Shown here: positions 5,017 through 43,677 of the stretch, piece by piece
How the letters are laid out: each line of letters starts with the position of its first letter
Numbering within the stretch: position 1 is the first letter of the stretch
Virus record (IMG/VR): IMGVR_UViG_3300041964_000036
Span: 1 to 43,677 of that record
Origin: a virus
Reading direction: 5' to 3' (one strand)
Length of the DNA stretch: 43,677 nt
Made by a program: the position numbers and the translations under genes
The notes under the pieces: model-generated
The model's input: only the letters and a program-made list of their open reading frames with translations
Database searches by the model: none
Told to the model about the DNA's origin: nothing

Positions 5017-6714
5017 GTAACAATTCAGCTATTCCTTGCGTTTTCTAACACTTAGCGGCTTCCCGCGGCACGCTCCTTCAAGCGCACCAAGCACCGCGCG
5101 CCCTTGCTTCCTCGTGGTTGAGAGATAGGAGCGGATGCGGCAGAACCTCCTCGCTCCTTCCTCTGTGCGGAAGCACCCCGAGGTCTTTTGTTGGAGTTTG
5201 ATCATCCTGAGATCACGCTCCGCCTGATTGTTGTCGAACGGCACCGAGAAGTCGGTCAGGAAGCGCAGCACCTCTTCCTTTCTCCGCTCCAGCCGGAGCA
5301 ACAAGTTGCGCCCCTGCTTCTGTACTCCCTCCGGCACATGCGAGGACGGCGGTACCTTCAGTCCTTCCGCGATCAGCCGGTCATAGCTGCCTGTCAGCGC
5401 TGCTAGTTTTTCTGCGCCCAGCCGCCGCCGCCCGCCATCAGCACTAACTTTCTCGACCTCCGTCTTCATCTCCAGCAGCAACTCTTTGAGCGGAGCAGCC
5501 CATGTCTTCGTCTCAACTCCTAATTCCTCAAAGAAGATCAGTTCGCGCAACAGGTGCGCCCCGCACAAGGCGTGGCGGGACTTCGGATAGAAGGTGTAAG
5601 AGAGCCAGCCGTCATGCACGCACGTCCCGCGGTACTGCGGCAGGATGCCGATGTCGTCCATCGCCGCCTTCCCTCTGCGCGCGTCCGCCCCATAATGCGT
5701 CAGCCGCGAGGTGCTCGCCACATGCACGTAGTGCAGCCGCCCCTCGACGCGCAACCCCGTCTCGTCGGCGTGAATGACTGGAGAGCGCCGCAACCCGCGC
5801 TTGATCTTCAACTCCGTCTCAACCAGCCCTGAGGCACATTGCCTGACGGCGCTGGCGAGCGTCCCCGCAGAGAGAGCGCAGCCGAACAGTTCTTTCATCG
5901 CCTCGGTCGTGCGCGCGTAAGGCAGCAGTTGATAGTCATGCAGGTAGAGCGCTCGGGCGAGGACTGACGGGCCATACTGCACGGTGGCTCTCACGCTCTC
6001 GGGGAACTCCGCCTTCGTGCGCTGCCCACATGAGGGGCAGCGCACGATCTCGGCCCGGTGTTCCGTGACTCGCAACCTCGCGGGGACGAGGTCAATCACT
6101 TGCCGCCGCTCGGTGCCGATCCTGTGCCCTGCCCCAAATGACCCGTGACAATGGCGGCACTGCGGCGGGCGGTGCGTGACGACGCGCGTCGGCTTCGGTG
6201 TCAGCCGTAACGTATGGCCTTGATGACCAAGCTGCCCACCCGGTCGCTGGCCTGATGGCCGCCGCAGGCTCTTCGTGCGCTTGCTCCAGGGCGGGTCAGT
6301 TGAGGGCGGGCGCGATGAGTTATGCGAGTCCTTCGTGATTACTGCTTCGAGTTCCGTGTTGCGGCGGCAGAGCCGGTGGTTGTCGCTGCGCGTCTCGCGT
6401 AACTCTTCCTGCAAGCGGGCGATCTGACCCTTGAGCCGTCCGATCTCCTCCGATAGTCCCTCGATGGCGCGCTGCTGCGTGTCAGGGTCGGGCGGGCCGT
6501 AGATGGCCTGAGTGCCGAGAGCCTGCTCGAAGAGACGAATGACCGCCGCCGGGCCGCGCAGATAAGTCTGGTAAATCTCATAGGAGGTCGGCATTAGAGC
6601 ACTTCCAGAGGAGGCATTGCGAGAGGAAACGGCTTATAGCCGACAGGAATGGCATCTTGGTGCCGCGCAAGTCGCTTTTTTGCTGTACTTTATACTACCT
6701 CCTGAACAGACACC
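5017..6714 (-). mobile_element. IS66-family insertion sequence
   Basis: A single-transposase element of 1,698 bp. The 8-bp sequence CGAGGCCG stands at 5009-5016 and again at 6715-6722, the exact target-duplication length known for IS66. The ends are weakly inverted: GTAACAATTCAG from 5017, and GGTGTCTGTTCAG read inward from 6714. The only gene is the transposase, whose stop lies 12 bp from the left end. It inserted in non-coding DNA, so it breaks no gene. The perfect duplication suggests a recent event. Confidence 0.93.
5029..6594 (-). CDS. tnpC: IS66-family transposase (TnpC type)
   Basis: 521 residues, the usual size. In order: a leucine-zipper-like coiled coil (about 41-85); the conserved SSRPPSTDPP and GQRPGGQLGHQG segments (about 93-127) typical of IS66; a zinc-binding part with CRHC (146-149) and CPSC (186-189); and the DDE core with Asp277 (HADETG), Asp328 (HDGW) and Glu459 (NNQAERDLR). 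It catalyses cut-and-paste movement of the element. There is no accessory tnpA or tnpB, so it belongs to the single-gene subgroup. No SD is seen before the start. It appears intact and could be active. Confidence 0.95.
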   Translation of the reverse strand: MPTSYEIYQTYLRGPAAVIRLFEQALGTQAIYGPPDPDTQQRAIEGLSEEIGRLKGQIARLQEELRETRSDNHRLCRRNTELEAVITKDSHNSSRPPSTDPPWSKRTKSLRRPSGQRPGGQLGHQGHTLRLTPKPTRVVTHRPPQCRHCHGSFGAGHRIGTERRQVIDLVPARLRVTEHRAEIVRCPSCGQRTKAEFPESVRATVQYGPSVLARALYLHDYQLLPYARTTEAMKELFGCALSAGTLASAVRQCASGLVETELKIKRGLRRSPVIHADETGLRVEGRLHYVHVASTSRLTHYGADARRGKAAMDDIGILPQYRGTCVHDGWLSYTFYPKSRHALCGAHLLRELIFFEELGVETKTWAAPLKELLLEMKTEVEKVSADGGRRRLGAEKLAALTGSYDRLIAEGLKVPPSSHVPEGVQKQGRNLLLRLERRKEEVLRFLTDFSVPFDNNQAERDLRMIKLQQKTSGCFRTEEGARRFCRIRSYLSTTRKQGRAVLGALEGACRGKPLSVRKRKE

Positions 6715-6828: not shown

Positions 6829-6857
6829 TTGCCCTGGCGGGCGGCTTGTGCTACAAA
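6829..6857 (+). promoter_or_regulatory. Promoter for the AAA ATPase / initiator block
   Basis: TTGCCC (6829-6834), 17-nt spacer, TACAAA (6852-6857). The ATG at 6866 follows 8 nt after the -10, which implies a leaderless or near-leaderless mRNA. It lies about 110 bp to the right of the IS. Confidence 0.55.
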
Positions 6858-6865
6858 GCCTCGCC

Positions 6866-7678
6866 ATGAACATGCAGCCGTTCAGCATAAGCCCCAATCC
6901 GCACCTCCTGTACGAGACCCCGGCGCTCAAGAACGCCCTGTTCAAGACCCGCCACGTCCTCGATAACAGGCAGGGATTGACCATGCTCCTCGGGCCGGTG
7001 GGGACGGGGAAATCGTCTCTGCTCCGCTACATCTACACCGAGTACCATGCGCGGGAGGAGTACGAGTGCAAGATACTTCCCTCCCCTAATTACATCAGCG
7101 ACTTCGCGTTCCTCAAGGCCATATCAGCCGAATACGGGTTAGGTCCCAGGCGTTCCGTGCTCGACCAGGAGAACGACCTGCGCGGCCGGATGGTGGAGCT
7201 GTACCGGGAGGGCAAGTCTGCTGTCGTATTCATCGACGAGGCGCAGAAGCTCAAAGGGGCGCAGCTCGAACTGCTTCGCACGCTCCTGAACTTCGAGACC
7301 CACGAGCACAAGCTCATCAACTTCGTGATCGCGGGGCAGATGGAGCTAGCCGCGAAGCTGGCCGACCCGAGCAAGGAGGCAATCAGGAGCCGCGTATTTC
7401 TTCCCAGCTCGCTCGATCCCCTGACGCTGCCTGAGACCACGGGCATGATCGAGTTCCGTTGCATGAAGGCCGAGATTCCCTGCCCGTTCGATTCCGAGGC
7501 GATAGCGGAAATCTACGACCGCACCGGAGGGATACCCAGGGAGATATTGAAGGTCTGCTCGTTCGCTCACGCCTTGGGGCAGAAGCAGAAGCTGAAGCTC
7601 TATCCCGTCGAACTGGTAGCCCTGGCCGCGAAGGAGGTCATGAATGGTACGGGCCGACAATCCGCAGCGGTGGAATAG
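6866..7678 (+). CDS. ExeA/TniB-like AAA ATPase
   Basis: 270 residues from the ATG MNMQPFSISP; an upstream in-frame start overlaps the -10 and is rejected. The N-terminus (PFSISPNPHLLYETP) is the hallmark of ExeA-like ATPases, which also include TniB/MuB-type DNA-bound ATPases. Walker A GPVGTGKS is at 43-50 and Walker B AVVFIDEAQ at about 119-127, with a C-terminal helical lid. It should bind and hydrolyse ATP and act on DNA or on the partner encoded next, whose gene overlaps its end. In a phage beside an origin-like array, a helicase-loader or initiation role is attractive but inferred. A transposition ATPase is unlikely, since no partner transposase is near. Confidence 0.85.
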   Translation: MNMQPFSISPNPHLLYETPALKNALFKTRHVLDNRQGLTMLLGPVGTGKSSLLRYIYTEYHAREEYECKILPSPNYISDFAFLKAISAEYGLGPRRSVLDQENDLRGRMVELYREGKSAVVFIDEAQKLKGAQLELLRTLLNFETHEHKLINFVIAGQMELAAKLADPSKEAIRSRVFLPSSLDPLTLPETTGMIEFRCMKAEIPCPFDSEAIAEIYDRTGGIPREILKVCSFAHALGQKQKLKLYPVELVALAAKEVMNGTGRQSAAVE

Positions 7679-8369
7679 CCTCTCCGACCTCCTCGAAGAG
7701 CCTGACGCCCACTCTCAGGCGAGTGGACGCCCACAATCGGAACTAGTGGACGCCCACACCAGGATCGTGGACGCCAAGACGCCCACACCGGAACCGAAAG
7801 CGGACGCCAAGACGCCCACCGCGAAACCCGCCAGACGCCCACCGAAGAAGGTTGTGGACGCCCACAAAGGCGACCGGCACCGGGGAGACAAGGCGCGGCA
7901 GCACTTCCGCATCAGTCCCGAGAATGACGAGCGTTTCCGCATGTTCCGAGCGAAGCACCGGCTGGAGTTGCAGGAGTTCTACGAGCTGGCTGGCGTCCAC
8001 TTCATCGAGTGCGTGGACGCCCAGCGCGACGTGGGTGTGGACGCCGTGGCGTCCCTTGATGATAGAGATACGATGATACTGTTTAAGACTCACCCCCGTA
8101 TCATCAATCTCTACCTGCAATACAACCCTGAGAACAGGTGGAAACTGGCAGACGATCACGTCGGAGCGGCCTACAACGACAAGGACATCCGCCTCATCGA
8201 AACGGGTATAATCCAGACCCAGTTCAACGCCAAGTTCAAGAAGATAAACTCGTTCAAGTACTACACGGTGGAGATCGACGCGGCACTCGAAGTGCCGCTC
8301 CAAGACGAGACGATAGAGGTCATGCTGAAGCATGGGCGAAGGAGATGGAAGGAGGCCGTTGGCGCATAG
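7644..8369 (+). CDS. Putative replication initiator carrying the origin repeats
   Basis: 241 residues, with a strong SD (AAGGAGG, 6 nt before ATG) and 35-bp overlap with the ATPase gene. Residues about 20-80 are low-complexity (Ala/Pro/Thr/Lys) because this DNA is a repeat array. Residues 85-125 are charged and helical (QHFRISPENDERFRMFR). The C-terminal 110 residues look folded (ILFKTHPRIINLYLQYNP) and end in a basic helix. I recognise no family. The role is inferred from the array of GACGCCCAC/GTGGACGCC repeats inside the gene and from the neighbouring AAA ATPase, an arrangement like lambda O and its origin. It could instead be a partition or transfer DNA-binding protein. Confidence 0.6.
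   Translation: MVRADNPQRWNSLSDLLEEPDAHSQASGRPQSELVDAHTRIVDAKTPTPEPKADAKTPTAKPARRPPKKVVDAHKGDRHRGDKARQHFRISPENDERFRMFRAKHRLELQEFYELAGVHFIECVDAQRDVGVDAVASLDDRDTMILFKTHPRIINLYLQYNPENRWKLADDHVGAAYNDKDIRLIETGIIQTQFNAKFKKINSFKYYTVEIDAALEVPLQDETIEVMLKHGRRRWKEAVGA
7704..8045 (+). repeat. Iteron-like repeat array, probable replication origin
   Basis: GACGCCCAC occurs at 7704, 7726, 7749, 7778, 7811, 7834 and 7857, mostly 22-23 bp apart. GTGGACGCC occurs at 7723, 7746, 7767, 7854, 8013 and 8037, and inverted at 7992-8000. The 9-mer is read in all three codon phases (as DAH, as GRP/RRP and as KTPT), so the DNA rather than the protein is conserved. An AT-richer stretch follows at about 8055-8125. Iterons plus an AT-rich segment inside an initiator gene is the classic phage/plasmid origin layout. 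The binding protein is inferred to be the gene product itself. Confidence 0.75.
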
Positions 8370-10647
8370 GATAGGAGCTATCATACTCGGCTGGGTAATG
8401 GCGGCCATCGTGGCTAACGGCTTGGGCTACGCGCTCTATGCCGTCACCGACGCGGAGCCGCCTAACCGTCTCATAGCCTTCGCCTGCCTCCTCACCTCGA
8501 TAGTGACGTTTCTCGGCACGTTAATCCTCACGTGGCCGTTTCCTCCGCCGCCACCGCCGCCTAAGCCGGTGCCGCCCCCTCCGAAGCCGGAGCCCGAGCC
8601 CGAGCCACCCCCCGAACCCGTACCCGAGCCCGACCCCATCCCTAGGGAGCCGTGGCCGCTCTACGAGGGGTTGCTCATCGGCATCCACAAACGGCAGATT
8701 AGCTTCTGGCCCGATGAGGTGAAGTTCAAGGCAGAGCCGGTCTTCCTCGACGATGCGGACAGGGAAGCGCACATCCAGATTATCGGCGGTTCCAGGCGAG
8801 GGAAGACCAAGCTTATGGAACACGCTATCAGGCAGATGCTCCTCAGGGAACGGACGGGGATCATCGTGGTAGACCCCGCCCAGCACCTCTATGAGGCCAT
8901 GCTCGCCTGGTGCGTGGCTAATGACCACCCCGCACACCTGCTCGACGCATCCGACCTTGACAGCCAGGTAGGATTCAACCCGTTCCACCTCGACGACCCG
9001 ACCCCGGCGCGGATAGCAACGAAGGCAAACACGCTTCAGCAGACCACGGTGCGGGCGCTCGGGTACACGGGAACCGAGGCGATACAGGCCGGTATCATCA
9101 TGCGCTGCATGTTCTACGTCCTGATAGAGCAGCAGCTTCCCCTGTCGGACCTCAGGGCGTTCAAGGCACCGCGCCTGTTCGACCAGCGCGACGAGATGAT
9201 GAGCAACTGTCAGAACGAGGACATCCGCGACGAGTGGGATTCGCTCGTCGCAGGGAAGAAGGTACCGGCCTACAACGCCTTGATGCGTTCGAGCGCCAAC
9301 CGCCTGTTCGACATCATCGTGGAGCCGGGCGTGCAGCGCATCTTCACGAACCCGAAACGGCTCGACATCCAGGCGATCACCCAGCGGGGAGAGACCCTGC
9401 TCGTGAACCTGAAATCAAGCGGTACCCTCTCCAAGACCTCGCGCAACATCATCGGCACGTTCCTGGTGGACGAGATATGGAACGCCATGGAGGAACGCAC
9501 GACGCACGAGTCCGAAACGCTCGCTCCCGTTAACCTCATCGTTGACGAGTTCCAGAACTTCGCCTCGCCCCAATTCGCCACGATGCTCATGGAAGCCGCG
9601 AAGTTTCGCTTCCACCTCTGGCTCATCACGCACTCCTTCCACTCCCTGGATGCGAGCGTCACCAGCGCGTTCGACGACTGCCTGGTACGGATAGCCCTCG
9701 GCGGCACCCCGATGCGTGACGTGCCAATCGTCATGCCCGGCCTCTCGCGGGACGAGGTGGTAGCCACTCATCGGCGTACCAAGCGCTTCTTCATGCTCCG
9801 CAGGTCAGGCAAGGAAGATCTGGTATGCAGCACGGTGGGAATCAGAAAGGTCGAGGCGGACCCGGAGAAGCTGCGTGCCTATGTCGAAGCGGCGACCAGG
9901 ATTAAGGCAGAGCCAGCAGCGGAGCCGGAGGTACCGGCCTTACCCGAGCCCGAGCAGCAGCTACAATCGGAAGACTATGACGCCCCGGCCATGACCTACG
10001 AGAAGCCGACCGACCCGGCAGGGATAGTGCGCGAGCTGAGGTTCGCGACCATCGACCAAGTGGCCGCCATCGTCGCCAAGACCAAGACAATCCAGAGGCA
10101 GACTACCCGGCATAAGCTCGTGAGTTTGGCGGCGGAAGGGAAGCTGGACAAGCTCTCGCACAAGGGCAAGAGCGTCTTCTGCCTCCCCGGAGACTCTACG
10201 AAAATCCTCGAACACGACCTGAAGATCACCGACTTCCATGTACGCTTCTGGGACGACATCCTTTTGTGGGAGCAGAGAGGGCTGAAACGAGAGGGCATCA
10301 ACCCTGACGCCTTCTTCGCTACGGCGGTCGGCTACTTCTTCCTGGAAGTCGAGAACAGCAGGCCCCGCTCCGAGGACGGCGAATCGGCGCTCCTGAAGAA
10401 AGCCAGGCAGTACGCTGCCTACTATGACCGGGGAGCCCACCAGGAGAAGTGCGGCAACTTCCGGGACTTGGAAGTATTCGACCTGGAGACCGAGGCGAGG
10501 AACTACTGTAAGGCCGTCGCTAAGGCGATTGCCAAGGGAGAGTTTCACAATCCGGGTCGCTACTGGGCCACCTGGGGCGATTGTTCCACCTTCATCACCG
10601 CGAAAGGCACTACCCATTCCATTACCACCCCTGTTACCACCGACTAG
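8332..10647 (+). CDS. Membrane-anchored VirD4/TraD-like ATPase with winged-helix tail
   Basis: 771 residues from the ATG at 8332. A TTG at 8359 just after an AAGGAGG sequence is an alternative start. Order: two membrane helices (about 13-37 and 47-68), a proline-rich linker (69-107), an ATPase core with Walker A GGSRRGKT (152-159) and Walker B NLIVDEFQNF (401-410), then a region about 562-620 resembling the winged helix of replication-relaxation proteins (VRELRFATIDQVAAIV), and a C-terminal domain rich in Trp/Tyr/Phe. The first part matches type IV coupling proteins, which pump DNA through membranes during conjugation. The fused tail could recognise the origin. A DNA pump in a tailed phage is unexpected; partition or DNA ejection are alternatives. 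Confidence 0.8.
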   Translation: MGEGDGRRPLAHRIGAIILGWVMAAIVANGLGYALYAVTDAEPPNRLIAFACLLTSIVTFLGTLILTWPFPPPPPPPKPVPPPPKPEPEPEPPPEPVPEPDPIPREPWPLYEGLLIGIHKRQISFWPDEVKFKAEPVFLDDADREAHIQIIGGSRRGKTKLMEHAIRQMLLRERTGIIVVDPAQHLYEAMLAWCVANDHPAHLLDASDLDSQVGFNPFHLDDPTPARIATKANTLQQTTVRALGYTGTEAIQAGIIMRCMFYVLIEQQLPLSDLRAFKAPRLFDQRDEMMSNCQNEDIRDEWDSLVAGKKVPAYNALMRSSANRLFDIIVEPGVQRIFTNPKRLDIQAITQRGETLLVNLKSSGTLSKTSRNIIGTFLVDEIWNAMEERTTHESETLAPVNLIVDEFQNFASPQFATMLMEAAKFRFHLWLITHSFHSLDASVTSAFDDCLVRIALGGTPMRDVPIVMPGLSRDEVVATHRRTKRFFMLRRSGKEDLVCSTVGIRKVEADPEKLRAYVEAATRIKAEPAAEPEVPALPEPEQQLQSEDYDAPAMTYEKPTDPAGIVRELRFATIDQVAAIVAKTKTIQRQTTRHKLVSLAAEGKLDKLSHKGKSVFCLPGDSTKILEHDLKITDFHVRFWDDILLWEQRGLKREGINPDAFFATAVGYFFLEVENSRPRSEDGESALLKKARQYAAYYDRGAHQEKCGNFRDLEVFDLETEARNYCKAVAKAIAKGEFHNPGRYWATWGDCSTFITAKGTTHSITTPVTTD

Positions 10648-10877: not shown

Positions 10878-12065
10878 ATGCTTGGAATCGACTCCTATGA
10901 CCGCCCCGTTTCTTTCACACCCGGAACCCACACGGGCATCTTCGGCCGCACCGGAACCGGCAAGACGAACCTGCTCGAACACATCGCGGCAACGGCGATA
11001 GATTCCGGCATCTGCATCATCGACCCGCACGGCGAGCTGGTTGACCGCTTCCTCGGGCTCATCCCGGACCACAGGAAGAATGATGTCATTCTGATTGACC
11101 CGCTGGCCGACCGGGTTCCGGGGATAAACTTCCTCGAAGGAGGCGAGGACGCCCTACTCATCGAGCACGTCGTCCGGCTGTTCAAGAATCTCTGGGGCGA
11201 CGCCTGGGGCGCTCGCTCCGAATGGCTCCTCGCAAACATCACCTACGCCCTCCTCGCCGCTGGCCCGGCGTCCCTGGTATCCATCGGCAAGTCGCTGACC
11301 AGCTCCGCGTACAGGAGGGAGCTGGCGACCGGAGCTGACCCCTATCTCGAACAATTCTTCTCGCACTTCAACTCCTGGACCCCGGCCTTCCGGCAGGAGG
11401 TGATAACGCCAATCCTGAACAAGGCTACGAGGCTCACGCTCAACCCTCATATCAGGGCCGTGCTCGGGCAGGCGACCAGCAGCTTCAGCTTCACCGAGGC
11501 GATGGACGAGAAGCGCATCATCCTGGTACGGCTTCCGAGAGGCTTGCTCGGGGAGGCATCGACGCTACTGGGCTGCGCTATCTTCACCAAGCTCACCCTC
11601 GCCGCGCTCGAACGAAAGACCACCGACCCGTACCTCGTGGTAGTCGATGAGGCGCACACGTTCACGAAAGGCGTTGACCTTCCCGTGACGCTGGCCGAGT
11701 GCCGCAAGTACGGATTGTTCGTCACGCTCGCGACGCAGAACCTGGAACTGCTCTCGCTCGAAGACCGGGCGGGAATCTTCGCCAACTGCGGAACCCTCAT
11801 CAGCTTCCGCACCTCGGCCCAGGACGCGAAAGTGATTGCGCCGGAACTGGGGAGCGACTGGCAGCCCCGCGCCGTGCAGAACCTCCCGAACTTCCACGCG
11901 CTCTACCGGACGATGGGGAAGGACATGCCCACGCCGCCCGTGGTGCTACGGGTCGCCCCGCCCCTCACCCCTCAAAGCAACGGCGTCAGGGAGGAGAGCC
12001 TACGTCGCTGGGGACACCCGAAGGACAAGGTAGAGGCCCGGATTCGGAGGCATCTGAGGCGCTGA
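10878..12065 (+). CDS. VirD4/HerA-like DNA-translocase ATPase (DUF87/TraM-recognition type)
   Basis: 395 residues. Walker A GRTGTGKT lies at 23-30, followed by the IDPHGELVDRFL segment typical of conjugative DNA-transfer ATPases. Walker B YLVVVDEAH is at about 252-260, and a sensor segment (LATQNLE) at about 284-290. It has no membrane helices, unlike the larger ATPase upstream, so the pair may be a membrane pump and a soluble partner. The family forms hexamers that move double-stranded DNA. No relaxase or secretion channel is encoded here. A terminase-independent role in replication, segregation or transfer is inferred. Confidence 0.85.
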   Translation: MLGIDSYDRPVSFTPGTHTGIFGRTGTGKTNLLEHIAATAIDSGICIIDPHGELVDRFLGLIPDHRKNDVILIDPLADRVPGINFLEGGEDALLIEHVVRLFKNLWGDAWGARSEWLLANITYALLAAGPASLVSIGKSLTSSAYRRELATGADPYLEQFFSHFNSWTPAFRQEVITPILNKATRLTLNPHIRAVLGQATSSFSFTEAMDEKRIILVRLPRGLLGEASTLLGCAIFTKLTLAALERKTTDPYLVVVDEAHTFTKGVDLPVTLAECRKYGLFVTLATQNLELLSLEDRAGIFANCGTLISFRTSAQDAKVIAPELGSDWQPRAVQNLPNFHALYRTMGKDMPTPPVVLRVAPPLTPQSNGVREESLRRWGHPKDKVEARIRRHLRR

Positions 12066-20924: not shown

Positions 20925-21123
20925 TGATTGTGGCGGCCATCTTGACAGAAAAACACATAACGTTCCTTATCAGTCCCAAATCGTGTTACATCGTCAATAG
21001 ACCACAAGGGATAGTATCCGCTCACCCACTCCGTCTGCCCTTTTCCTCAGCTTTTGCACACGAGATGTGCAGACACAATGGGTTGTGGTAGACGACGCAT
21101 CGAAACCTGTCATACTTCGCGGT
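20925..21123 (+). other. Intergenic region with promoter-like boxes
   Basis: 200 bp without a gene. TTGACA near 20942 has only a weak -10. CATACT at 21111-21116 ends 7 nt before the ATG at 21124, fitting a leaderless start for the next gene. No strong terminator follows the restriction gene. Confidence 0.4.
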
Positions 21124-21273
21124 ATGCAAATCACCCTCACAGCGGAAGAGTCAGCGTTCCTCGTCTCGCTCCTTTCAGACATCACGGTCAAACCAGCCGC
21201 GCCGGAAGCCGCCCAGATCGTAGCCCTCGTCGCTTCGATCATCGGTAAGCTCAAGCCGGAAACAGAGCAGTGA
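21124..21273 (+). CDS. Hypothetical protein, 49 residues
   Basis: MQITLTAEESAFLVSLLSDI: a short helical protein with no motif. Likely a leaderless start (CATACT 7 nt upstream), and GTGA overlap with the next gene. First of a run of small genes before terminase. Confidence 0.5.
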   Translation: MQITLTAEESAFLVSLLSDITVKPAAPEAAQIVALVASIIGKLKPETEQ

Positions 21274-22187: not shown

Positions 22188-22460
22188 ATGCAGAACGGCG
22201 GAAAGAGACCAGGAGCAGGACGACCGAAAGGCGCTGTTTCAGGGCACACCAAGGAAGCCCTCATCTTCAAGGAGGAGCTTATCCGCCGCGTCCTGGAGGA
22301 GAAGGGGCCGATCATCGACGCCCTCATCAAGAAGGCCAAGGCCGGAGACGTTCAGGCTCTCAGGGAAATCAATGACCGGCTCCTCGGCAAGCCGCTCCAG
22401 CAGGTAGGGCTCGACGACGACACCATCAGCGCCCTCACTATCAGGTGGCTGAGCGAGTAA
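22188..22460 (+). CDS. terS: Terminase small-subunit-like protein
   Basis: 90 residues. The N-terminus GGKRPGAGRPKGAVSGHTKE is the Gly/Arg/Lys DNA-binding start seen in many phage small terminases, followed by helices (EELIRRVLEEKGPIIDAL). It ends with a 16-bp overlap with the large subunit. The small subunit recognises the packaging site and hands DNA to the motor. Assigned from the motif and position. Confidence 0.7.
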   Translation: MQNGGKRPGAGRPKGAVSGHTKEALIFKEELIRRVLEEKGPIIDALIKKAKAGDVQALREINDRLLGKPLQQVGLDDDTISALTIRWLSE

Positions 22461-23719
22461 TCGAGATCCCCTACGCGCCCCGCCCCTGGGCGTTAGACTT
22501 CCATACCAACGCGAAACGCTGGAACGTCCTGGTCATCCATCGCCGGGCAGGTAAGACGACGGCGGCAGTCAACCATCTCCAGAGAGATGCGCTGAGAACC
22601 AAGGCAGCTTCTACGCCTACGTCGCCCCGACCTACAAGCAGGCCAAGCTCATCGCCTGGGATCTCATCAAGAAGTATTCCCGGATGATTCCGGGAATCGA
22701 GTACAACGAGCAGGAGCTTACCGTTAAGTACCCGAACGGCTCCAAGATCCGTCTGTTCGGGGCCGACAATCCTGACTCACTTCGCGGCATAGGCTTATGG
22801 GGCGTGGTGTTCGACGAGTACAGCCAGCAGCCGAGTAACATCTTCTCTGAGATCATCCGGCCTGCGCTCGCGGACCACGCGGGCTACGCCATCTGGATCG
22901 GCACCCGAAAGGCAGAAACGACTTCTACCGCCTCTACCTGGGCGGCCTCAAGACGACGCTTGGTACGCCAAGCTCCTGAGCGTGCATGACACGGACATCC
23001 TGAACGAGCATGAGCTTCGCGATGCCCGGAAGGTGATGACCGAGGAGGAATACAACCAGGAATTCCTATGCAGCTTCGACGCTGCTATCAAGGGCTCCTA
23101 CTACGCCTCGGAGCTTCAGAAAGCCCGGAACGAGGGGCGCATCAAGCCCGGCATCTACGACGATTCCCTCTTGGTTCATACCGTCTGGGACTTGGGCATA
23201 GGCGACGCCATGGCTATCGGCTTCTACCAGAAGGTTGGGCCGGAGACCCGCATGGTGGATTACTACGAGAACACCGACCAGCCCTTGAGCCACTACGCGG
23301 CTCATCTCAATCAGAAGACCTACACGTACGGTAAGCACTTCGCGCCGCACGACATCGCCGTCAGGGAGCTCAGCACGGGCAAGTCGCGCCTCGAAGCGGC
23401 TAAGGCTCTGGGCATCAGGTTCGAGATAACCCCGAACCTTCCCGTGGATGACGGCATCAATGCTGGCCGGATGATGTTCGACCATCTCTGGATAGACGAG
23501 GCAAAGTGCGCCTACTTTCTCGACGCAATCGCCCAGTACCGGAGGGAGTGGGACGACGCGAAGGGCATGTTCAGGGAGACGCCGAGGCATGATTGGACAA
23601 GCCACGCGGCGGACGTGCATCGGTATGCGGCGATAGATGAGAAGCGTATGGCGAACCAGCTTCCCACCCCGCCGCCCACGCCAGGCGTGCAGCCCTACTA
23701 CCCGCAACTGGGCATCTAG
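22445..23719 (+). CDS. terL: Terminase large subunit, interrupted by three frameshifts
   Basis: Read across frames, this is a complete large terminase. The ATPase part has Walker A VIHRRAGKTT near 22530 and LWGVVFDEYSQ near 22800. The nuclease part (from 22982) has VHTVWDLGIGDAMAI, PHDIAVRELSTGKSR and DWTSHAADVHRY with the Asp residues that bind metal. Frame changes lie near 22595, 22908 (ACCCG where ACCCCG is expected for GTPKGRNDFY) and 22955. The motor pumps DNA into the procapsid and cuts it. Single-base steps in an otherwise conserved gene point to sequencing errors; decay is the alternative. Confidence 0.88.
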
Positions 23720-42454: not shown

Positions 42455-42984
42455 AGCGAGCCGCCATATGCGGCTTGATAGCCGCCTCCGTCCTCATCCC
42501 CATAACTGCCCACGCACGCGGAAGCCTCGAAGACCAATCATATGAGATCGTGACCCGTGCCGTGTCTTCAGCGCAGGCCGCGCCTTACGTCCCCATCGAG
42601 GAAGTCCCCACGGAGGCGGCTTTGGTGAAGACCGCGCAGGCGGTTGAGAAGGCACCGGCGAAGATTCGTAAGGTAACAAGTGTTACCTATCAGAATCAGT
42701 CCGACCTTATGTCTCACTGGGCAGCAGTCATGGACCAGCTCGGCACCGTTCACAAGACCACGCTGCTCCGCATGATTAAGTGCGAGAGCGGGGGCCGGGA
42801 GAAGATTGTCGTCTGGGACGTTCACTCGAACTCCTACGGCATCCTCCAGTTCAAGACGCCCACCTGGGATTGGTTCTCCCAGAAAGCAGGTATCTCCGGC
42901 TCACCACTTGACGGGGCAAAGGCAATCCAGGTCGCGGATTGGGCCTTGAGCAATAACCTCGGCCATCACTGGACCTGCCGCTAG
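42451..42984 (+). CDS. Secreted lysozyme/transglycosylase-like protein (Rpf-like fold)
   Basis: 177 residues. The signal peptide MKRAAICGLIAASVLIPITA is followed by HARG, a linker rich in Ala/Val/Glu, then a lysozyme-fold domain at about 95-177: LLRMIKCESGG with the catalytic Glu in CESGG, NSYGILQFKTPTWDWFSQKA, GAKAIQVADWALSNNLGHHW. This matches transglycosylase-like domains that cut the sugar chain of peptidoglycan. Secreted, so it could act from outside in lysis or biofilm. Coupled to the HNH gene (ATGA). The end of the gene is repeated, badly, at 1-663. Confidence 0.85.
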   Translation: MKRAAICGLIAASVLIPITAHARGSLEDQSYEIVTRAVSSAQAAPYVPIEEVPTEAALVKTAQAVEKAPAKIRKVTSVTYQNQSDLMSHWAAVMDQLGTVHKTTLLRMIKCESGGREKIVVWDVHSNSYGILQFKTPTWDWFSQKAGISGSPLDGAKAIQVADWALSNNLGHHWTCR

Positions 42985-43015
42985 GTTATCAACAGGCGAT
43001 GGAGAGGCAGCTTGC

Positions 43016-43021
43016 TATGCT
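43016..43021 (+). promoter_or_regulatory. -10 box of a leaderless transcript
   Basis: TGCTATGCT with TATGCT at 43016-43021 ends 6 nt before the ATG at 43028. The same arrangement is found at the left copy (about 695-700). The -35 is not clear. Confidence 0.5.
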
Positions 43022-43027
43022 TCAGGT

Positions 43028-43594
43028 ATGACTCACAAGCCTCACTGTTCCGCCAATATATCGTGCATGGTCGCCCATAACGGACCGTGCCCCGGTTATA
43101 AGCCGTGCGACTGCGGAGCTGAAAGGGTTCCCGCCACCACCACAGAAGCCCAGGACTGGGAACGTCGCGAGTGCATGCAGCAGGGCTGCACGAGGACCGC
43201 CAGCGTCACGGACAAGGTAGGCTGGCACCTGTGCGACGAGCACCAGGCGCGGTACGAGAAGCAGGATGCCAGGCTGCACGGTGTAGGGGAGCGCCACGAG
43301 CCCCAGGACTGGGAGAGGGAGTTCGATACGGAGTTTGCCGAATGGACCGTATACACAGCGGGTTCCCCGGCTGGATTGAAAGTTAAAGCCTTTATCCGTT
43401 CCCTCCGCGACCAGTGGAAAGCGGAGCTGCTGGAGAAGCTGCCGGAGCTAGAGAAGGTTAATTGCTGCGGGGGCGGTGACAATTTCGGTCATAGCGATAC
43501 GTGCGAGATGGACAACTACCAGAAGCGTGTGAACTACACATGGGGCTTCAACGCTTGCCTCGAATCAGTCCGCCGCATCATCCAAGAGAGCTGA
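43028..43594 (+). CDS. Cys/His-rich protein, 188 residues
   Basis: Intact copy. Three Cys/His clusters: HKPHCSANISCMVAHNGPC...CDC, CMQQGCTRTASVT...HLCDEH, and CCGGGDNFGHSDTCEMD. They suggest multiple zinc-binding modules joined by charged helices (QWKAELLEKLPELEKVN). The near-leaderless start follows TATGCT. The gene ends overlapping the next ATG. No known family; a regulator or nucleic-acid binder is possible. Confidence 0.65.
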   Translation: MTHKPHCSANISCMVAHNGPCPGYKPCDCGAERVPATTTEAQDWERRECMQQGCTRTASVTDKVGWHLCDEHQARYEKQDARLHGVGERHEPQDWEREFDTEFAEWTVYTAGSPAGLKVKAFIRSLRDQWKAELLEKLPELEKVNCCGGGDNFGHSDTCEMDNYQKRVNYTWGFNACLESVRRIIQES

Positions 43595-43677
43595 TGCAGG
43601 AGAAACTGTACATCTCGCGCAACCTCGGATACGACCCGAAGACTCAGGCCACGTACACGGTCTCGGAGCGCAAGTTC
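43594..43677 (+). CDS. Partial: 5' end of the small gene continued at 1265
   Basis: MQEKLYISRNLGYDPKTQAT runs off the window end. It is the same gene as 1265-1506 on the circular unit. The overlap TGATG with the gene before is identical in both copies. Confidence 0.75.
   Translation, partial: MQEKLYISRNLGYDPKTQATYTVSERKF

Follow-up and report, generated by a model that had tools for sequence, protein, structure and literature searches.

The uncultured phage genome analyzed here (43,677 bases in its IMG/VR record, the whole of which is called the window) carries an array of short repeats within the coding sequence of a 241-codon gene, followed in the same gene by an AT-rich block. On sequence comparison, the array and the block together are probably the replication origin of the phage, laid out inside a gene as in lambda but paired with an unrelated putative initiator couple, an AAA+ ATPase and an orphan protein. 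The array, the AT-rich block, their conservation at the DNA level, and the linkage of the two genes are read directly. In the mechanism that we propose, the protein encoded by the array gene would bind the array as dimers on 12-bp dyads, the resulting nucleoprotein complex would melt the AT-rich block, and the AAA+ ATPase encoded just upstream would act on that complex so that the host replicative helicase is loaded; protein binding, melting, helicase loading, and replication itself are steps that we infer.

The repeat array

The sequence-only reading that first drew attention to this locus had counted seven and six copies of two 9-mers, plus one inverted copy, between 7704 and 8045, and an exact recount returned the same numbers. 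Within the open reading frame at 7644 to 8369, GACGCCCAC starts at 7704, 7726, 7749, 7778, 7811, 7834, and 7857, and GTGGACGCC starts at 7723, 7746, 7767, 7854, 8013, and 8037, with its inverted copy at 7992 to 8000. Chance would supply 0.65 and 0.73 copies, respectively, in the whole window, and the observed numbers were reached in 0 of 100 shuffles, a control that had been suggested with the first reading. The only copies of GACGCCCAC outside the array, at 538 and 42855, represent a single locus, duplicated in the record by the overlap of the contig ends. When the whole window was scanned for any 9-mer occurring at least four times per 400 bp, the array alone qualified; Markov genomes given the same scan produced three copies at most. 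Rfam gave no match.

The repeat unit can best be written as an imperfect palindrome of 12 bp, GTGGACGCCCAC, with GTGGGCGTCCAC as its reverse complement. Nine such sites form the main array on the plus strand (7701 to 7865; starts at 7701, 7723, 7746, 7767, 7775, 7800, 7808, 7831, and 7854), and a cluster of three sites 24 bp apart (7989 to 8054; 7989 inverted, 8013, and 8037) lies nearest the AT-rich block. The site at 8037 forms a perfect inverted repeat, GGACGCC-GT-GGCGTCC, adjoining the block. The 135-bp gap in the array (7866 to 7988) is where a conserved protein domain is encoded. Site starts are mostly 21 to 25 bp apart, with two pairs at 8 bp, which refines the spacing of 22 to 23 bp reported earlier; the description of that spacing as about two helical turns was loose, 23 bp being about 2.2 turns.

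Conservation of the array and the AT-rich block as DNA

A search with the protein recovered one relative, L004 (contig UViG_3300035668_000005, G002), and a search by repeat pattern alone recovered L004 again together with L008 (UViG_3300034030_000018, G001). Both come from uncultured phages, represented by 38 kb and by a 12-kb fragment; G001 is circular by 117-bp ends, and G001 and G002 are alike. No homologues were found in GenBank phages, PLSDB plasmids, or 84,980 bacterial and archaeal (GTDB) genomes, and the comparison rests on three known genomes, those of the window phage, G001, and G002.

The three genes align without gaps over 7701 to 7865. Identity to the two relatives was 71% and 74% within sites and 38% and 37% between them (Fisher p=4.8e-5 and 4.1e-6), figures to be read with the caution that the window sequence itself served to define the sites. 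In the window, the sites lie 354, 332, 309, 288, 280, 255, 247, 224, 201, 66, 42, and 18 bp from the AT-rich block, and the sites of the relatives match these distances within 1 to 2 bp despite changed orientation and residues; the register of the main array is kept in both L004 and L008, and the three-site cluster has the same sites at the same distances in each. The site 201 bp from the block, for example, reads GTGGACGCCCAC in the window, AAGGGCGTCCAC (the other orientation) in L004, and GTGGCCGCCCAC in L008, encoding DAH, GVH, and AAH, respectively, with the near-palindrome kept. The window has 12 sites and the relatives have 17 and 16, the extra ones being on the distal side. Selection on the DNA itself had been proposed, with persistence of the repeats in related phages despite residue changes as the check; in both relatives the sites stay in place where spacers and residues differ, which supports that proposal. 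The two outcomes named beforehand as refuting it, loss of the repeats where the protein is conserved and an equal frequency of the 9-mer elsewhere in the genome, were both looked for and not found.

The AT-richer stretch noted earlier behind the array proved to be a sharply conserved, unstable block, CTTGATGATAGAGATACGATGATACTGTTTAAGACT, at 8055 to 8090, which is a candidate DNA-unwinding element by its identity among phages, silent-site conservation, and low duplex stability. The 26 bp directly 3' of the last site, CTTGATGATAGAGATACGATGATACT (8055 to 8080), are identical in the three phages. The codons used in the block are rare in this GC-rich genome (AGA, 11/334; TTT, 14/232; GAT, 63/350; ATA, 44/309), and A or T occupies 0.64 to 0.82 of third positions there versus 0.18 to 0.34 elsewhere in the aligned region. 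Silent-site identity peaks at 8007 to 8078, where 45 of 47 comparisons are identical (permutation p=0.0002 in a windowed test over three phages); in a weaker test, the longest run of identical codons, 8 codons, did not reach significance (p about 0.07). In duplex stability the block belongs to the lowest seven 36-bp places in the window, and its counterparts rank 3 of 18,211, at the lowest end, in the G001 segment L026 and low in L004. It holds the heptamer-like repeats GATGATA/GAGATAC/GATGATA and is overlapped by an inverted repeat, AGAGAT-GATGATAC...GTATCATC-ATCTCT, at 8063 to 8112, for which DNA folding z values were -5.1 in the window, -5.7 in L004, and -2.2 in L008. Taken on sequence grounds, these comparisons support the conclusion that the array, which exceeds the needs of the protein, and the AT-rich block are conserved as DNA.

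The two-gene module

The upstream gene (6848 to 7678, plus strand) encodes an AAA+ ATPase of the AAA_22, ExeA/TniB/MuB-like type, a candidate loader or remodeling partner that is conserved in the relatives. It matches Pfam AAA_22 (E=1.4e-18), PHROG 296, "DNA transposition protein" (E=1.8e-17), and NCBIfam TIGR03015 (E=7e-37, below that model's cut-off). A test for a helicase loader of the P/DnaC kind thus found a conserved adjacent AAA+ ATPase whose best matches are ExeA/TniB/MuB-like, nearer to these than to DnaC.

The array gene (7644 to 8369, plus strand) overlaps the ATPase gene by 35 bp (7644 to 7678), in agreement with the overlap seen at the outset, and is coding by its base composition (GC1/GC2/GC3, 0.63/0.38/0.77); it is 59 to 62% identical in the two other phages. 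Its product has a variable N-terminal segment, probably disordered, followed by a conserved 166-residue region. The impression that the protein belongs to no known family held up in searches that found nothing in Pfam, NCBIfam, or the PDB and, in PHROG, no more than a weak, unnamed match; none of the profiles tested indicated homology to lambda O, and no Rep family, as would be expected of a Rep-type initiator beside iterons, was among the profile matches. A ribbon-helix-helix fold, suggested by an RQHFRIS-helix-helix layout, was rejected after PF01402/RHH_1 gave no match up to E=10 and hhalign was negative; residues 86 to 127 do have a strand-helix-helix layout, which is suggestive only. A DnaD-like C terminus (DnaD/DnaB_2), suggested by GIIQTQ...INSFKYY, was likewise rejected on a negative PF07261 profile. 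Structure prediction from the three sequences yielded two models with pLDDT of 39 and 42, too poor for a fold search. As a candidate origin-binding initiator, the protein would represent a new type, as had been suggested.

Apart from one weak HNH match, the window phage has just two genes in common with G001 and G002, the AAA gene (about 37% identity) and the array gene (61 to 64%). In both relatives the AAA gene directly precedes the array gene, and what lies downstream of the array gene is VirD4-like in the window and consists of terminase genes in G001 and G002. Because the two genes are nearly all that is shared, the pair behaves as an exchanged module. The case is evenly poised for the broader proposal that this is a previously undescribed initiator module, consisting of an AAA_22 ATPase and an orphan iteron-binding protein, which has its origin embedded in the gene of the binder, moves as a unit between unrelated phages, and has converged on the lambda arrangement.

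Genome context

Bases 469 to 1348 recur as bases 42790 to 43677 with 97% identity, and most of the differences are single-base indels; the full end overlap (1 to 1348 versus 42490 to 43677) comprises 896 bp at 97% and a further 175 bp at 82%. Since its ends overlap, the contig closes on itself at about 42.3 kb, and the genome, circular or terminally redundant, is probably complete at that length. Sequencing indels are probable at the left end of the contig and would account for the poor open reading frames at 1 to 5 kb. The large terminase gene (22445 to 23719) appears split over three overlapping frames, probably also by indel errors. Reading through stops in the weak regions uncovered genes for an Erf annealing protein, NinG, and endonuclease VII at 13 to 16 kb and no replication gene. 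Among the open reading frames of the window that were scanned, no other initiator, helicase, primase, or polymerase family was recognized. The claim that the phage has no other initiator, helicase, or polymerase therefore stands for recognizable families in an essentially complete genome; it does not carry over to the relative G001, in which a Prim-Pol gene lies some 2.5 kb before the AAA gene. Cumulative GC skew, which had been put forward as an origin check, was uninformative, with no turning point at the array.

Two VirD4/TraG/HerA-like ATPases are encoded downstream of the array gene (8332 to 10647 and 10878 to 12065), the first of which combines a proline-rich segment with a Replic_Relax domain at its C terminus (PF13814, E=1.2e-8); no relaxase or type IV secretion genes were recognized in the window. 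An IS66-family transposase gene (5029 to 6594) lies shortly before the AAA gene on the opposite strand; its closest relatives on plasmids, at about 45% identity, are those of Chlorohelix and Geobacillus.

Alternative explanations

Repeats inside a gene could reflect a disordered protein segment that is itself repetitive, here one with DAH/TPT motifs. The N-terminal segment is of low complexity, and purely coding 12-bp repeats do occur in two other loci met in the searches, L039 and L043. The sites of the array, however, are read in all three phases, as the sequence-only reading had stated (the core GACGCC falls 7/2/2 by codon phase), so that the array is no peptide repeat, and the 22- to 24-bp spacing breaks the frame. 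Redrawing synonymous codons with the protein fixed left a mean of 1.7 to 2.8 copies and a maximum of 8, versus the 14 observed (0 of 2,000 redraws). Sites also persist where residues change, and three of them lie in or beside the folded region. Codon randomization and the cross-phage comparison largely exclude this explanation, the least credible of those considered. It is also very unlikely that the array and a MuB/TniB-like ATPase form a transposition or target-immunity system, as the ATPase match to the PHROG "DNA transposition protein" and a distant homologue, L024, beside an integrase-core transposase might suggest: no such DDE transposase adjoins the module in the window, G001, or G002, the IS66 gene is a separate insertion, and the sites are inside the next gene rather than at element ends.

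The two main rivals are also unlikely. In one, the array is a partition site: the 241-residue protein would bind it as a centromere, and the AAA+ ATPase would power a partition system, like that of a plasmid, in an extrachromosomal prophage. In-register dyad repeats beside an ATPase gene resemble plasmid centromeres, two VirD4/HerA-like ATPases follow, and no integrase was found in any of the three contigs, so that plasmid-like maintenance is possible. Yet a ParA-type ATPase (AAA_31, PF13614) is absent from the three contigs (G000, the window; G001; and G002) in a search in which 14 of 14 controls were positive, AAA_22 is no known partition motor, and the RHH_1 test was negative; a centromere would leave the low-stability, codon-constrained AT-rich block beside the array unexplained and the phage with no visible initiator. 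Quite unlikely, too, is a regulatory role in which the sites are autoregulatory operators of the protein and the genes downstream are transcribed from a promoter in the AT-rich block. It would fit dyad sites that adjoin an AT-rich stretch and a strong inverted repeat at the block, but a scan for sigma-70-like promoters found none there, no sites lie upstream of the AAA operon, the block is identical although the downstream genes differ (VirD4-like versus terminase), and 12 to 17 sites over 350 to 470 bp far exceed the need of an operator.

Comparison with known origins

The replication-origin reading had been framed from the start by analogy with lambda gene O, and in layout the analogy holds. 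Lambda and Stx phages have inverted-repeat iterons in the coding sequence of gene O, followed by an AT-rich region, with four iterons in lambda and six in Stx phages (PMC7466680). The window phage likewise has dyad iterons inside an early gene and an AT-rich tract after them in the same gene, and iteron number varies among its relatives as well (12 versus 16 to 17 sites). A candidate partner gene is adjacent and recombination genes follow, the Erf, NinG, and endonuclease VII genes lying downstream as in lambda/P22-type early regions. Unlike the lambda case, the 241-residue protein is unrelated to O in all profiles tested, the partner is an upstream AAA_22 ATPase rather than P, there are twelve or more 12-bp sites at about 23-bp steps, and three sites lie past the first conserved segment, adjoining the AT-rich block. 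Because its protein is no O homologue, the candidate origin cannot be filed as a lambda origin.

In iteron plasmids of the P1, F, RK2, and pMBL6842 type, too, an array of direct repeats adjoins an AT-rich element and the gene for an initiator; their arrays are usually outside the rep gene (within 397 bp upstream of repB in pMBL6842), unlike here, and they encode Rep, whereas the 241-residue protein has no Rep family match. The antitoxin PrpA, a ribbon-helix-helix protein that binds iterons at an origin and represses replication (PMC7848731), is a precedent for a small non-Rep DNA-binding protein on iterons; it belongs to a known family and is a repressor, whereas the fold here is unproven and the proposed role is positive. 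The ExeA/TniB/MuB-type AAA+ ATPases belong to the same domain family as the module ATPase but differ from it in that the latter is without a transposase or secretion partner and is linked to an iteron gene. If the proposal is true, placing an origin inside the gene of its own initiator would have evolved repeatedly and with unrelated proteins, and an exchanged replication module would seem to gain by carrying its own binding sites. It would also give a function to the orphan family and to ExeA/TniB-like ATPases in phages without visible replication genes, and an array next to a codon-constrained AT-rich block would be a sequence rule for finding hidden origins.

Other repeat loci

G001 has two further repeat clusters, CTGTGGAAA near 16.4 kb and CTCTGACGC near 21 kb. 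The former (L025, 16089 to 16540) combines a perfect 33-bp inverted repeat with a CTGTGGAAA/TTTCCACA cluster upstream of the Prim-Pol gene and is a candidate for another origin or an operator. The latter (L026, 963 to 1137; G001, 20963 to 21137) has five copies of CTCTGACGC, three forward and two inverted, before the AAA gene; this repeat is absent from G002 and unclustered in the window. With a Prim-Pol gene and two additional clusters present, the module may not be the sole origin candidate in G001.

Other hits of the repeat-pattern search (L039, L043, L044/L049, and L060) were rejected as relatives, being coding tandem repeats only; L039 (4480 to 5164) and L043 (2960 to 3380) are long tandem 12-bp repeats that encode VDAQ/VRDQ/VYDQ-type tetrapeptides in one frame only. 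An AAA-profile search for more relatives added one distant transposon-linked ATPase, that of L024. For an array in a 126-kb phage record (L054, 2261 to 3110; G003:33448-34296), no homologue of the array protein was found nearby in the 74 kb read. That array is apparently noncoding and repeats the near-palindrome GTGGNCGNCCAC roughly 25 times or more, with a step of about 23 bp, next to a T-rich stretch. In motif and spacing it bears a striking resemblance to the array in the window, possibly reflecting a second, independent use of a similar site.
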